Positions 1,628 through 22,008 of a stretch of 33,032 nucleotides of DNA are shown one piece after another. Location of the stretch: NCBI GenBank assembly GCA_016213945.1, contig JACQZF010000055.1, positions 1 through 33,032 on the forward strand. The letters are read 5' to 3'. Positions within the stretch are counted from its first letter, which is position 1, and the number at the start of each line of letters is the position of its first letter. This DNA is from Nitrospirota bacterium (lineage in GTDB: Bacteria > Nitrospirota > Thermodesulfovibrionia > UBA6902). A program made the translations under genes and the position numbers. The notes below the pieces were generated by a model. It was not told where the DNA came from and ran no database searches. It was given only the letters and a program-made list of their open reading frames with translations.

Positions 1628-3157
1628 ATGGAAAAAAGAACGCTGTTAGCTGTTGTACTGTCGCTTGTTATATTGTTGGGCTGGACATATTTTTTTCAGA
1701 CAAAACCGGCTCCGCAAAAGGCAAAACCCGCTGAACAATCCGCCACGCAAACAGGGCCTGCGGCCAACCCTGAGACAGTACAGCCTGTCGCGCAGGTATC
1801 CGTTGAACCCACGGTTACAAAAGACGCAGCGGCAAGCGATATTACAGTAGAGACGGACCTGTATAAAGCCGTCTTTTCCACCCAGGGGGCTGTTATAAGA
1901 TCATGGGAATTGAAAGATTACAAAGACAACAATAAAATGCCTGTTGTGCTTTTAAAAGACAGCGGCGTTGTCCCTCCTGCCGGAATTGTTTTTGAAGGTG
2001 CAAACCGCACCCTGCCGTTAACGCTTATTTATGAAACCAGCGCCAACCAGCTCACCCTCTCCAAAGGAAACAATCATGGAGAACTGGTTTTTATTTACAC
2101 CGACGGCAGGATGTCCATAAAGAAGAAGTTCGTTTTCTTTAACGATGATTATAAGGTAGACCTTTCCATTGAAACCGCTAACACCCCTCCATACATTCTT
2201 CCTGTCGGGACCGACTTCGGCGTTTACGACAAAAAACAGAGCGAGCATAAAGGCCCGGTTATCCTTATCGATTCAGACAGGAAGGAATTTGACGAGAAGC
2301 TGAAGGAGAAAACTGATTTTACCGGCAACATCCGCTGGATCGCCCAGGAAGATAAATATTTTACAGCCGCGCTGATCCCCCTTACCCCGGCAGAAGGCGC
2401 AACCGTCTGGAAGGAAGGCGCTTCGCCTGAGATCGGATTTAAGATAAAACAGCCCAAACAGGATTTCATCCTTTACGCGGGGCCGAAGGAATACGACAGG
2501 CTAAAAAACTTAAATAAGAAACTTGAATACATTGTTGATTTCGGCTGGTTTTCAGTTGTCGCGATGCCGCTCTTCTGGGTGCTGAAATATTTCTATTCGT
2601 TCCTTGGGAATTACGGCTGGGCAATAATTCTGATAACGATTGTCGTGAGAATACCATTTATCCCACTCCTCAATAAAAGCCAGCAGTCCATGAAGAAGAT
2701 GCAGACGATCCAGCCCATGATGAATGAGATAAAGGAAAAATATAAAAAAGACCCCCAGAAAATGCAGCAGGAGACCATGGCGCTTTACAAAAAACACAAG
2801 GTCAACCCTGTCGGCGGCTGTCTGCCCATGCTCCTTCAGATCCCGGTTTTCATTGCGCTGTATAACGTTCTCAACAAGGCCATCGAACTAAGAGGCGCGC
2901 CCTTTGCGCTCTGGATAACCGACCTCGCTGCAAAAGACCCATACTACATACTTCCTATCACAATGGGTGTAACCATGGTCATCCAGCAAAAGATGACGCC
3001 CACGGCCATGGACCCCACGCAGGCAAAGATGATGATGTTTATGCCGGTTATTTTCACCTTCATGTTTTTAAGTTTCCCATCCGGTCTTGTCCTGTACTGG
3101 CTCGTAAACAATGTCCTCGGAATAGCCCAGCAGTATTACGCAAACAAGAAAGGGTAG
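1628..3157 (+). CDS. yidC: Membrane protein insertase YidC/OxaI
   Basis: The protein has 509 residues and the Gram-negative YidC layout. There is an N-terminal transmembrane anchor (about 5-22), a Pro/Ala/Thr-rich linker (about 27-65), and a periplasmic beta-sandwich domain to about residue 300. The conserved five-helix insertase core follows. The core carries the hydrophilic-groove Arg in TIVVRIPF (near 340), the cytoplasmic hairpin with QQSMKKMQTIQPMMNEIKEK, and GGCLPMLLQIPVFIALYNVL. The long periplasmic domain argues for an outer-membrane-bearing host. The ATG follows AAAAGAGAGAT. It inserts membrane proteins alone or with SecYEG. The jag/khpB gene that often follows is absent; mnmE comes next. 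Confidence 0.95.
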   Translation: MEKRTLLAVVLSLVILLGWTYFFQTKPAPQKAKPAEQSATQTGPAANPETVQPVAQVSVEPTVTKDAAASDITVETDLYKAVFSTQGAVIRSWELKDYKDNNKMPVVLLKDSGVVPPAGIVFEGANRTLPLTLIYETSANQLTLSKGNNHGELVFIYTDGRMSIKKKFVFFNDDYKVDLSIETANTPPYILPVGTDFGVYDKKQSEHKGPVILIDSDRKEFDEKLKEKTDFTGNIRWIAQEDKYFTAALIPLTPAEGATVWKEGASPEIGFKIKQPKQDFILYAGPKEYDRLKNLNKKLEYIVDFGWFSVVAMPLFWVLKYFYSFLGNYGWAIILITIVVRIPFIPLLNKSQQSMKKMQTIQPMMNEIKEKYKKDPQKMQQETMALYKKHKVNPVGGCLPMLLQIPVFIALYNVLNKAIELRGAPFALWITDLAAKDPYYILPITMGVTMVIQQKMTPTAMDPTQAKMMMFMPVIFTFMFLSFPSGLVLYWLVNNVLGIAQQYYANKKG

Positions 3158-3194
3158 TCAACCTCAGGACACAGAGTAAAAATAATCTTCGCTA

Positions 3195-3215
3195 AGACGT
3201 CCCGGCGGGACGTCT
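3195..3215. repeat. Palindromic repeat unit upstream of mnmE
   Basis: AGACGTCCC (3195-3203) and GGGACGTCT (3207-3215) form perfect 9-bp arms with a 3-bp loop. No T-run follows, so it is not an obvious intrinsic terminator. It sits in the 76-bp yidC-mnmE gap, just where jag would be expected. Its form resembles short dispersed palindromes common in environmental genomes; only this copy was seen here. Confidence 0.5.
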
Positions 3216-3233
3216 CTACATATTAAAGTTACC

Positions 3234-4622
3234 ATGCACACCGCAGACACCATAGCAGCCATATCAACCCCGCAGGGCCGCGGCGGCATCGGCATTATCA
3301 GGCTCAGCGGCAGAGACGCGATAAAGATCGTTGACAGGATTTTCATCTCCCCCAAAAAGAAAAGGATAAAACAGACCCCGTCCCACAGGGTCCTCTACGG
3401 TCATATCATAAATCCGTCTGACAAAGAGATTGTGGATGAAGCGCTGGTTTCGGTTATGAAGGCGCCAAATACTTATACGAAGGAAGATGTCGTGGAAGTA
3501 AACTGCCACGGAGGGCCTGTGCCTTTGCGCAGGACATTGGAGCTTGTTCTCAGCGAAGGGGCAAGACTTGCGGAGCCGGGAGAATTTACGCAAAGGGCGT
3601 TTTTAAACGGAAGGCTCGACCTCGCGCAGGCTGAGGCAGTTCTTGATATAATCAACTCGCTTACAGAACAAAGCAGAAAGACAGCGGTTGCGCAGCTCAA
3701 AGGGGGCCTTTCAAAAAAGATCGAGGTCCTACGCGAAGAATTAATTGAGCTTACCGCGTTTGTGGAGGCCCACATAGATTTCCCCGATGAAGACATAGAA
3801 GCACCGTCATTAAAAGACATGGAAAAGATGGCGCTGAAGGTCCGGCAATCCCTGCAAGAACTCATTGAGGGCTCGCGATATGGTCTGGTCCTGCGTGAGG
3901 GACTGAAGACCGCGATCATCGGCAGGCCGAATGTCGGCAAGTCCTCTTTGCTCAACGCATTGCTTGAGCATGACCGGGCAATCGTGACCGAGATGCCGGG
4001 AACAACAAGGGATGTCATCGAGGAGTATTTAAACATCAACGGCATTCCAGTAAGGATCATGGATACAGCCGGTATAAGAGATGTCAAAGACATTGCGGAG
4101 AAGGAAGGGGTGAAGCGGAGCCTCAAGGCAATGGACGACGCGGACCTGGTATTGCTTGTCCTGGACGGCAGCAGCGAACTGCATGAAACAGACATAGAGT
4201 TGATCGGGAAAACAGGCCCGGGAAATACTATCTTCGTCATAAACAAGGACGATCTCCCACAGATGATGGATTTAAATGTAGGGGTGGGTTTGAAACCCGC
4301 CCCTGAGAAAATCTTTGTCCGCGTCTCCGCCAAAAAAGAAACCGGGCTCGATGAATTGAAAAACAAGATAGCCGAAACTGTCTTGCGCGGTCATGCTGAA
4401 GGCAACGCGGATGTCGTTACCAACATCAGACATGTCCATGCGCTCAAAAAGGCGCTTGCATCAATTAATTCTTTCATCACTGCTGCCGGTCAGAAAACCT
4501 CTCCCGAATTCCTCTCAGTTGAATTAAGGGACGCCCTCGATGCAGTCGGGGAAATAACAGGGGTCACCACACCCGATGATATCCTCAACAGGATCTTCAG
4601 CAATTTCTGTATCGGGAAGTAG
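3234..4622 (+). CDS. mnmE: tRNA modification GTPase MnmE (TrmE)
   Basis: The protein has 462 residues (usual 450-460). It has the N-terminal formyl-THF-binding domain (DTIAAISTPQGRGGIGIIRL), a helical domain and an inserted G domain. The G domain has G1 GRPNVGKS (230-237), G2 GTTRD, G3 DTAG (277-280) and G4 NKDD (337-340), followed by SAK near 365. It ends in the obligatory FCIGK, whose Cys is needed for the modification. With MnmG it makes 5-aminomethyl-type modifications at wobble U34 of tRNAs. Residues 349-357 are encoded by a palindromic repeat that also occurs at 5746-5774, lying between G4 and G5 where length varies in the family. The ribosome-binding site is weak. Confidence 0.95.
   Translation: MHTADTIAAISTPQGRGGIGIIRLSGRDAIKIVDRIFISPKKKRIKQTPSHRVLYGHIINPSDKEIVDEALVSVMKAPNTYTKEDVVEVNCHGGPVPLRRTLELVLSEGARLAEPGEFTQRAFLNGRLDLAQAEAVLDIINSLTEQSRKTAVAQLKGGLSKKIEVLREELIELTAFVEAHIDFPDEDIEAPSLKDMEKMALKVRQSLQELIEGSRYGLVLREGLKTAIIGRPNVGKSSLLNALLEHDRAIVTEMPGTTRDVIEEYLNINGIPVRIMDTAGIRDVKDIAEKEGVKRSLKAMDDADLVLLVLDGSSELHETDIELIGKTGPGNTIFVINKDDLPQMMDLNVGVGLKPAPEKIFVRVSAKKETGLDELKNKIAETVLRGHAEGNADVVTNIRHVHALKKALASINSFITAAGQKTSPEFLSVELRDALDAVGEITGVTTPDDILNRIFSNFCIGK
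4278..4306. repeat. Palindromic repeat inside mnmE (family A copy)
   Basis: The left arm GTAGGGGTGGGTTT (4278-4291) faces AAACCCGCCCCT (4293-4304) across one base. The 29-bp unit matches the intergenic copy at 5746-5774 at 25 of 29 positions by my count. It is in frame and encodes VGVGLKPAP (residues 349-357) of MnmE. Confidence 0.75.
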
Positions 4623-4630
4623 TTTCAAGA

Positions 4631-4659
4631 GTGATAAGTGACGGGTAACGAGTGACGGG
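4631..4659 (+). repeat. Dispersed 29-bp repeat (family B copy 1)
   Basis: This 29-bp unit begins GTGATAAGTGACGGG and ends ACGAGTGACGGG. It differs at one base from 16722-16750. A 24-bp match in inverse orientation lies inside bioA (31199-31222). Internally it repeats the motif AGTGACG/AACGAGTGACG, like a short tandem array. It lies in the mnmE-hemB gap. Confidence 0.7.
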
Positions 4660-4767
4660 ATTTCATGAATGAGGGTTTTAAACTACAATCTGCCCTACGA
4701 ATAAGGACAGGAAATTTGATATACTTAATCAGTTATAAAATTCAGAATCTTTAAAAAGGAGCTAACT

Positions 4768-5742
4768 ATGCCTTTTCCAATTCACAGGCCAAGAAGACTC
4801 AGGATCAACAATGTAGTACGAAACATGGTAAGAGAAACGCATCTCACGCCCAATGATTTTATATATCCCCTGTTTGTCACGTTCGGCAAAGGTGTCAGGA
4901 AGAAAATATCCACAATGCCGGGATGTTTCCAGTTGTCCGTGGACGAGATCGTAAAAGAGGCTCAGCATGTCTACAAGCTCGGCATTCCGGCCATCATACT
5001 CTTCGGCATCCCTGAACACAAGGATGAAAAAGGCACTGAGGCGTATAATCCGAAGGGCGTTGTTCAGCAAGCCATCAAGGCCATCAAGGACAAAGTCCCG
5101 GATCTCCTTGTAATCACTGATGTGTGCATGTGTGAATACATGAGCCACGGCCACTGCGGCATTATCAAGAAAGGGCAGATATTAAATGACCCCACTCTCG
5201 AGCTCCTTGCAAAAGAGGCCTTGTCCCATGTAAAGGCTGGCGCGGACATTGTTGCCCCGTCGGACATGATGGACGGCAGGATAGCTGTGATAAGAGACAC
5301 CCTTGACGCTAACGGTTTTGAGGACATTCCGATAATCAGTTACGCCGCAAAATACGCCTCCGCGTTTTATTCCCCGTTCAGAGAAGCGGCTGAATCAACT
5401 CCCTCATTCGGAGACAGGCGTTCATATCAGATGGACCCGGCAAACAGGAGAGAGGCAATAAAAGAGGTCGAGCTTGATATCGAAGAAGGCGCTGATATCG
5501 TGATGGTCAAACCTGCGTTGTCGTATATGGACATAATTTCTGATGTAAAAGATACATTCGATGTACCTGTCGCAGCATATAACGTCAGCGGGGAATACTC
5601 GATGGTGAAGGCCGCCGCAAAGATGGGATGGATCGATGAGATGAAGGTTGTGATGGAAATCCTGACCTCAATGAAGCGCGCGGGCGCAGACCTGATTCTC
5701 ACATATCACGCAGTGGACGCGGCAAAGGAATTGAATAAATAA
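4768..5742 (+). CDS. hemB: Delta-aminolevulinic acid dehydratase (porphobilinogen synthase)
   Basis: The protein has 324 residues, the full family length. It condenses two 5-aminolevulinate molecules into porphobilinogen in haem, sirohaem and corrinoid synthesis. The active-site zinc Cys triad is C120, C122 and C130 in [13 protein letters not shown]. The two catalytic lysines are K195 in [16 protein letters not shown] and K248 in [11 protein letters not shown]. The ATG at 4768 follows the strong site AAAAAGGAGC at good spacing. The corrinoid-activator-type gene starts 76 bp downstream, with a palindromic repeat between them, so co-transcription is possible but not shown. Confidence 0.95.
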
Positions 5743-5745
5743 TTT

Positions 5746-5774
5746 GTAGGGGCGGGTTTAAAACCCGCCCCTAC
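5746..5774. repeat. Perfect 14-bp-arm palindrome (family A copy)
   Basis: GTAGGGGCGGGTTT (5746-5759) and AAACCCGCCCCTAC (5761-5774) are perfect inverted arms around a single A. No T-run follows, so I call it a repeat rather than an intrinsic terminator, though the hairpin may protect the hemB mRNA end. A diverged copy lies in frame inside mnmE at 4278-4306. Confidence 0.8.
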
Positions 5775-21138: not shown

Positions 21139-21867
21139 ATGGACTTAGGTGCTTTCGGCAGCATAACATTCGACATCAATTTTCTTTCCAGTCTCATGAG
21201 TATCGTGATAATAGATCTGATACTGGCAGGAGACAATGCCGTTGTGATCGCCATGGCTGTCAGGTCTCTTCCCCATGAGCAGAGGAAGAAAGGTATCCTT
21301 TTCGGTTCAGGCGCTGCCGTCCTGCTCAGGGTAATTCTGACCTTCTTTGTGGCCCAGCTCCTCCAGGTAAATTACATAAAACTTATAGGCGGCATACTGA
21401 TTTTATGGATAGCAGTAAAGCTTTTCATGGAAGGCGTGCCTGAGGACAGTTCCGGGAAGGAAGCTACTACGATAACGCAGGCGATCAAAATAATCGTCGT
21501 TGCCGATATCACAATGGCAACAGACAATATGCTGGCAGTGGGCGGGGCCTCGCACGGCAACCTGTTCCTGCTCCTGTTCGGTCTTGGTTTAAGCATCCCG
21601 TTTATTGTTTTCACGAGCAACCTCCTCTCAAAGCTGATGGACAAGTACCCGGCTATTATCTACATCGGCGCCGCCATACTCGGGAAGGTCGGCGGTGAGA
21701 TGATCATTACGGACCCTGTTATTGTAAACATGCTGAGCCCCGGCAAGGTGATACAATATGCTGTAGAGATCACCTTTGCTGCCGGAGTTATCGTGGCTGG
21801 GAAGCTTTGGATGAAGTGGAAGGTTTCAAGGGAAGAGAAAAAGGACCATGTTCATGAAGACGCTTAA
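21139..21867 (+). CDS. TerC/YjbE-family integral membrane protein
   Basis: The protein has 242 residues and about seven hydrophobic segments. The TerC hallmark acidic residues are present in IDLILAGDNAVVIAMA (near 25-40) and in the paired ATDNMLAVGG in the second half. This pseudo-symmetric arrangement is typical of the family. TerC-family members are linked to tellurite resistance and, in several bacteria, to Mn2+ export; the substrate here is unknown. No yybP-ykoY riboswitch was recognised upstream. There is no clear ribosome-binding site before the ATG because repeat DNA runs up to it. The C-terminus is short and charged. Confidence 0.85.
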   Translation: MDLGAFGSITFDINFLSSLMSIVIIDLILAGDNAVVIAMAVRSLPHEQRKKGILFGSGAAVLLRVILTFFVAQLLQVNYIKLIGGILILWIAVKLFMEGVPEDSSGKEATTITQAIKIIVVADITMATDNMLAVGGASHGNLFLLLFGLGLSIPFIVFTSNLLSKLMDKYPAIIYIGAAILGKVGGEMIITDPVIVNMLSPGKVIQYAVEITFAAGVIVAGKLWMKWKVSREEKKDHVHEDA

Positions 21868-21925
21868 TACATTAACCACAGAGGACACAGAGGGATATAC
21901 TATGGTTTCGTTTTCAAGGAAGAGA

Positions 21926-21981
21926 GATTCCCGACAAGCGGGAATGACACAATGTTCTGTCATTCCGGCTCGTCCGGAATC
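21926..21981. repeat. Paired palindromic GTCATTCC-type repeats
   Basis: GATTCCCG-acaa-CGGGAATGAC and then GTCATTCCGG...CCGGAATC form two hairpins. They belong to the same broad type as the core of the MITE at 16570-16717. The pair ends 27 bp before the cytidylate-kinase-like ATG. Confidence 0.55.
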
Positions 21982-22008
21982 TTTTCCTATCTCAGTGGAG
22001 GAGACAAT

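Follow-up and report, generated by a model that had tools for sequence, protein, structure and literature searches.

MnmE is a universal tRNA-modifying enzyme, and in the bacterium considered here its gene carries a 29-bp palindrome that is read in frame. How did the repeat come to lie inside such a protein, and what does its presence say about the place that it occupies? We consider it very probable that it is one copy of a dispersed, REP-like palindrome, which was inserted into mnmE in the common ancestor with the nearest relative and would have been translated ever since, in a loop that is recurrently colonised.

The locus lies in a stretch of 33,032 nucleotides (the window) from the 3.5-Mb genome of a groundwater bacterium (Thermodesulfovibrionia, Nitrospirota; 101 contigs, 98% complete), called G000 below. 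A preliminary description, made from the letters of the window, had stated that the palindrome downstream of hemB recurs with four changes within mnmE, that the copy encodes VGVGLKPAP between the NKDD and SAK motifs of the GTPase domain, and that the frame is kept and the protein otherwise intact. All of this holds, coordinates included (Table 1): the mnmE copy reads GTAGGGGTGGGTTTGAAACCCGCCCCTGA and the copy downstream of hemB GTAGGGGCGGGTTTAAAACCCGCCCCTAC, with 4 differences between them, and no further site in the window matches the 29-mer (at most 3 mismatches, central position N; none expected in 100 shuffles). The encoded protein matches the solved MnmE structures 3geh, 1xzp, 3gee and 9hip, and N337, K338, D340 and S365 are invariant in an alignment of 26 MnmE sequences. 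In an AlphaFold2 model based on a 26-sequence alignment, residues 349-358 are predicted as an unstructured, low-confidence loop (pLDDT below 50, no secondary structure) between the strand that ends at residue 337 and the SAK region.

Other repeats are also present in the window. A palindrome of another type, GCTAAGACGTCCCGGCGGGACGTCTCTAC, occupies 3191-3219, in the gap between an ORF end at 3157 and the ORF start at 3234; a degenerate GTGACGGGTAACGAGTGACGGG tandem just 3' of mnmE, at 4630-4660, resembles a tandem in the murD loop of the relative G034; and at 21925-21982, directly 3' of the ORF at 21139-21867, lies an imperfect inverted repeat of 58 bp, whose ends resemble GTCATTCC and which is probably a worn copy of the VIPAKAGIQ-type element listed in Table 1.

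Table 1. Features of the mnmE locus in the window, and repeat types found in the MnmE loop of G000 and its relatives (genome copies given as forward/reverse).
Feature	Window position or genomes	Strand	Remarks
mnmE, tRNA-modification GTPase, 462 aa	3234..4622	+	intact ORF, repeat in frame
G4 motif NKDD, residues 337-340	4242..4253	+	left border of the variable loop
Palindromic repeat copy, 29 bp	4278..4306	+	codons 349-357 = VGVGLKPAP; three mismatched arm pairs
G5 motif SAK, residues 365-367	4326..4334	+	right border of the variable loop
Perfect 29-bp palindrome, same family	5746..5774	.	gap 3' of hemB ORF (4768-5742)
29-bp palindrome in MnmE loop	G000, G036, G040, G044; decayed in G014
GTAGGGGCACGGCGCGCCGTGCCCCTAC in MnmE loop	G046		encodes VGARRAVPL; copies 11/10
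GTCATTCCCGCG...CCCGGAATGAC in MnmE loop	G041, G043, G007, G008		encodes VIPAKAGIQ...PGQARND; copies 10/8, 38/41, 30/28 and 16/13, respectively
CCCCCTT...AAGGGGG palindromes	G013, G005, G038 (several stacked)		encode SPLTKGGIKGG and similar; copies 7/1, 9/9 and 16/13, respectively
GTCATTGCGAG...GCAATCTC element with tandem expansions, in MnmE loop	G004		82 residues total; copies 11/3
Composite of repeat pieces in MnmE loop	G037

The relatives are MAGs of Nitrospirae/Thermodesulfovibrionia, several of them of groundwater origin. It had been proposed that the residues might be an insertion unique to this genome. Aligned against MnmE of the relatives that lack this copy, whose loop is either plain and shorter or filled by another repeat and does not have the same residues, it is indeed an insertion, but it is not unique: the nearest relative, G036, whose MnmE is 93% identical, carries the same element. 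Since both genomes have not only the insert but also its altered right end, TGA, the insertion predates their split. The corresponding place downstream of hemB is occupied in G036 as well (L045 at 4017), by a copy that differs at one position of the 23-bp core.

The same pair of genomes bears on the idea that the insert is selected, its added peptide or mRNA hairpin regulating MnmE. The loop does lie between two nucleotide-binding motifs, and as RNA the mnmE copy folds into a strong hairpin (-21 kcal/mol, z -5.3). However, GTAGGGGTGGGTTTGAAACCCGCCCCTGA of G000 and GTAGGGGCGGGTTTGAAACCCGCCCATGA of G036 differ at two positions in opposite arms, GTG (V) against GCG (A) in the left arm and CCT (P) against CAT (H) in the right one; both differences change the amino acid and each breaks the palindrome in one of the two genomes. 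In other words, arm pairing was lost independently in the two lineages through amino-acid-changing substitutions, which speaks against selection acting on hairpin or peptide at this site. Given also that the inserts of the loop are wholly different in sequence, range in length from about 4 to 82 residues and are missing from many relatives, we regard a regulatory role as very unlikely and the peptide as presumably neutral.

Elsewhere in the genome, the palindrome is widespread. A search of G000 for GGGGCGGGTTTNAAACCCGCCCC with up to 3 mismatches gave 38 sites, against 0 for the reversed pattern, so that the count asked for in the preliminary description came out far above the two copies known from the window. 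The family consensus is G(T/C)AGGGGCGGGTTTNAAACCCGCCCCT(A/G)C, that is, G(T/C)A GGGGCGGGTTT N AAACCCGCCCC T(A/G)C, and full-length copies with GTA...TAC ends number 28 in G000, 41 in G036 and 96 in G040, with fewer or none in more remote members of the order. Viral contigs seldom carry the palindrome: its exact form was found in 15 stretches among 2.9 million such contigs. As judged from the 4-kb stretches around the G000 copies, about 15 of the 38 sites (some 40%, mnmE included) are in genes, 19 in gaps or at gene ends, and 4 at uncertain N-termini; at gene ends, the GTAG sometimes provides the stop codon (L019, L025, L033). The 15 copies in genes are read in the VGAG(L/F)KPAP frame in 13 cases, in the RGGF(Q/E)TRP frame in 2 and in the TAG-containing frame in 0.

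Besides the one in mnmE, at least 14 copies lie in frame within ORFs longer than 220 residues. Eleven of these copies are in proteins that Pfam recognises, including MurD, CobT, TrpE, a DinG-like helicase, an alcohol dehydrogenase and a radical SAM protein. By Pfam boundaries, several copies sit inside conserved domains: at residues 120-127 of CobT (domain 11-356), at residues 184-191 of MurD (middle domain 142-344) and at residues 82-89 of a histidine phosphatase (domain 36-256). Two copies were found in anthranilate synthase/TrpE, one of them within the N-terminal domain, and two in a nucleotidyltransferase. Across the genome, copies in genes are not significantly more decayed than other copies (p = 0.22), and relaxed constraint on the palindrome in genes therefore lacks statistical backing. 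Other repeat families, such as NPLSPPFRKGG and TPLTPLDRGEVSPPLKKGD, occur in the same G000 proteins; in those of L018, L023 and L035, in-frame LSPPLKKG/TPLTPLDRGE peptides that resemble translated CCCC...GGGG repeats stand beside the 29-bp palindrome. An apparent open frame of 24,059 residues on contig C79 was discarded as a masked run of N.

We then asked how the MnmE loop behaves across the order, where most of the 47 genomes yielded an MnmE. In the aligned proteins, the segment that links NKxD to SAK varies strikingly, while the remainder is nearly free of length changes. Relative to the insert-free protein of G009, insertions of 4 residues or longer fall at alignment positions 344-347 in 18 of 35 MnmEs, and elsewhere in the body of these 35 proteins there is one single insertion of that size class, 4 residues long. 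At the DNA level, the inserts are palindromes of distinct families (Table 1; the inserts of G011, G042, G031, G001 and G035 could be placed in no family), each multicopy in its own genome with 0 hits for reversed controls. Parsimony on a tree of MnmE from which the loop was left out requires no fewer than 12 changes of insert type and no fewer than 9 of presence or absence, counts that are rough minima given the weak support of the deep branches. Turnover is best supported in the clade of G042, G043, G044 and G046 beside G000 and G036, where sister species carry different families. Beyond the order, palindromic inserts turned up in the same loop of G062, G073 and G195 in a sample of 20 genomes; the dispersal tests cover the inserts within the order.

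Could all of this descend from a single insertion into the MnmE loop of the whole lineage, diversified by point mutation and indels, with no repeated colonisation? The mnmE genes of G044 and G046 have the identical left junction, GCGATGGTC/GTAGGGGC, although their palindrome cores differ, G014 retains a decayed copy, and one of the TrpE sites described below seems to be vertically inherited across a genus, all of which would suit such a history. Against it, the loop holds near-exact copies of mutually unrelated families, each of them multicopy in its own genome, and point mutation would have to convert one dispersed family into another with arm complementarity kept; we find a single ancestral insertion very unlikely. 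Even less credible, and in our judgement hardly worth entertaining, is an artefact of MAG assembly or binning. The genomes are mostly MAGs and repeats can mislead assembly, but the insert is in frame and at the same junction in two different genomes (G000 and G036), it is shorter than a usual sequencing read, and misassembly is not expected to put repeats into one loop across many separate assemblies.

Recurrent colonisation is not confined to MnmE. Three further proteins, TrpE (at two sites), MurD and CobT, picked solely for having a G000 copy, show the same multiple occupancy as the MnmE loop. In murD, the 29-bp palindrome is present in G000, G036, G038 and G040, another core, GTAGGGGCGAACGGCCGTTCGCCCCTAC, in G037, and short tandem repeats in G035, G039 and G041, with a short loop in G033. 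In cobT, the palindrome is present in G000 and, as worn copies, in G037 and G040, while G033 has a CCTCCCTTACCAAGGGGGG repeat and G041 none. At the second TrpE site, G000, G036, G040 and G035 share one family and G041 retains a worn copy; from these sequences, the site looks like one insertion that was inherited and then decayed. The units of the murD tandems in G035, G039 and G041 (L258, L260, L256) are GGGGCAA, GGGTCA and GGGATTAG. A short GCAGAAG-type tandem, encoding peptides like EVQKSRRAEVQK, was seen both in TrpE loops (L200, L203) and in MnmE loops (L231, L232) of different genera.

Comparison of these sequences thus shows the palindrome to be a dispersed repeat that survives in frame, and the MnmE inserts to be a turnover of families within a single loop. 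The following course of events would produce this pattern. Several small hairpin-forming repeat families would spread through these genomes, the palindromes striking genes and gaps alike, and the survivors in genes would be those that offer a stop-free frame, cause no net frameshift and fall into a loop tolerant of extra residues. In MnmE, this would be the connection of the NKxD strand to the SAK motif in the G domain. A resident insert may then drift, decay, gain further repeats or give way to another family. For the last of these steps, we note that palindromes with the same outer arms, GTAGGGGC...GCCCCTAC, and different cores occupy one junction in mnmE (G044 and G046) and in murD (G040 and G037), which hints at a possible exchange between resident and incoming palindromes. 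That such palindromes replace each other at the same nucleotide in genes by exchange of their cores is an idea we put forward as doubtful, though worth keeping; we found no description of this mechanism for REPs or RPEs. If it is true, a resident palindrome is itself a target for replacement, and an occupied loop stays a dock for changing peptide inserts.

As for the enzyme that presumably moves the repeat, the palindromes might be a GTAG-type REP family mobilised by RAYT (Y1) transposases, which would be compatible with recurrent colonisation by a dispersed palindrome and which we hold possible, if short of an even chance. The palindrome has a GTAG terminus and the 29-bp size; Y1 transposases (PF01797) occur in 39 of the 47 genomes of the order, G000 among them with four matches, one at a masked contig end; and in family f1 copy number rises with Y1 count (rho 0.55, p 0.0005, phylogeny ignored), with 7 of 8 genomes without Y1 also lacking copies. 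Yet no correlation is left once the whole order is considered (rho 0.16), G013 carries 10 copies without having any Y1 match, none of the 24 Y1 gene neighbourhoods examined, among them those of three of the four G000 matches, contains the palindrome, and the GTAG lies within the paired stem instead of forming an unpaired tag at one end.

How does the family compare with known systems? The likeness to the protein-coding palindromic elements of Rickettsia, in another lineage, that was suggested at the outset is borne out by the copies in gaps and in frame in conserved genes. The RPEs (Ogata 2000, 2002) are dispersed palindromic repeats found in gaps and in frame in conserved protein genes, where the inserts lie in solvent-exposed regions and protein function is kept, guanylate kinase having been shown to be active (PMC2229807, PMC3767692). 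Here, 15 of 38 sites are in genes such as mnmE, murD, cobT and trpE. RPEs, however, are 100-150 bp long and known from Rickettsia and Wolbachia (PMC2229807, PMC3767692), compared with a 29-bp unit in Nitrospirota, and here unrelated families share one loop. GTAG REPs are palindromes of 20-40 bp with a GTAG end, located in gaps and genes and providing TAG stops at gene ends (Di Nocera 2013, PMC3733652); the 29-bp multicopy palindrome agrees with them in size and copy number, but its ends, GTAG...CTAC, are alike and paired, and none of the 24 Y1 stretches contains a palindrome-flanked RAYT gene (REPtron). The presence of short hairpin repeats alongside Y1 transposases in one genome recalls REPIN/RAYT systems, which are mostly extragenic, inverted pairs (PMC8049555), whereas here single palindromes are found, about 40% of them in genes. 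Because of its unit size and lineage we do not class the family as an RPE, nor, because the GTAG is paired and no Y1 gene examined is flanked by the palindrome, as a GTAG REP; it is neither by these criteria, though it works like both.

Intragenic REPs are known in a range of bacteria, and different REPs at about the same site have been described in one case, recB of two Xanthomonas species (PMC3733652). Literature searches on MnmE with palindromic repeats, and on Nitrospirae with palindromic repeats in coding regions, returned nothing relevant. What is new is that one orthologous loop is occupied by unrelated families; RPEs and intragenic REPs are otherwise alike.

In-frame palindromic repeats have so far been regarded mainly as an oddity of Rickettsia, and the possibility that RPE sites act as hotspots, receiving inserts of different origin, was left open (PMC3767692). 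With at least five multicopy repeat types in one loop of a universal enzyme among related species, and three more proteins that behave alike, this question becomes answerable: orthologous loops are recurrent docks. The peptides concerned, such as GAGLKPAP, VIPAKAGIQ and LSPPLKKG, can mislead annotation and homology searches. At the same time, the loops amount to a natural experiment that reveals which places in conserved enzymes can accommodate random peptides.
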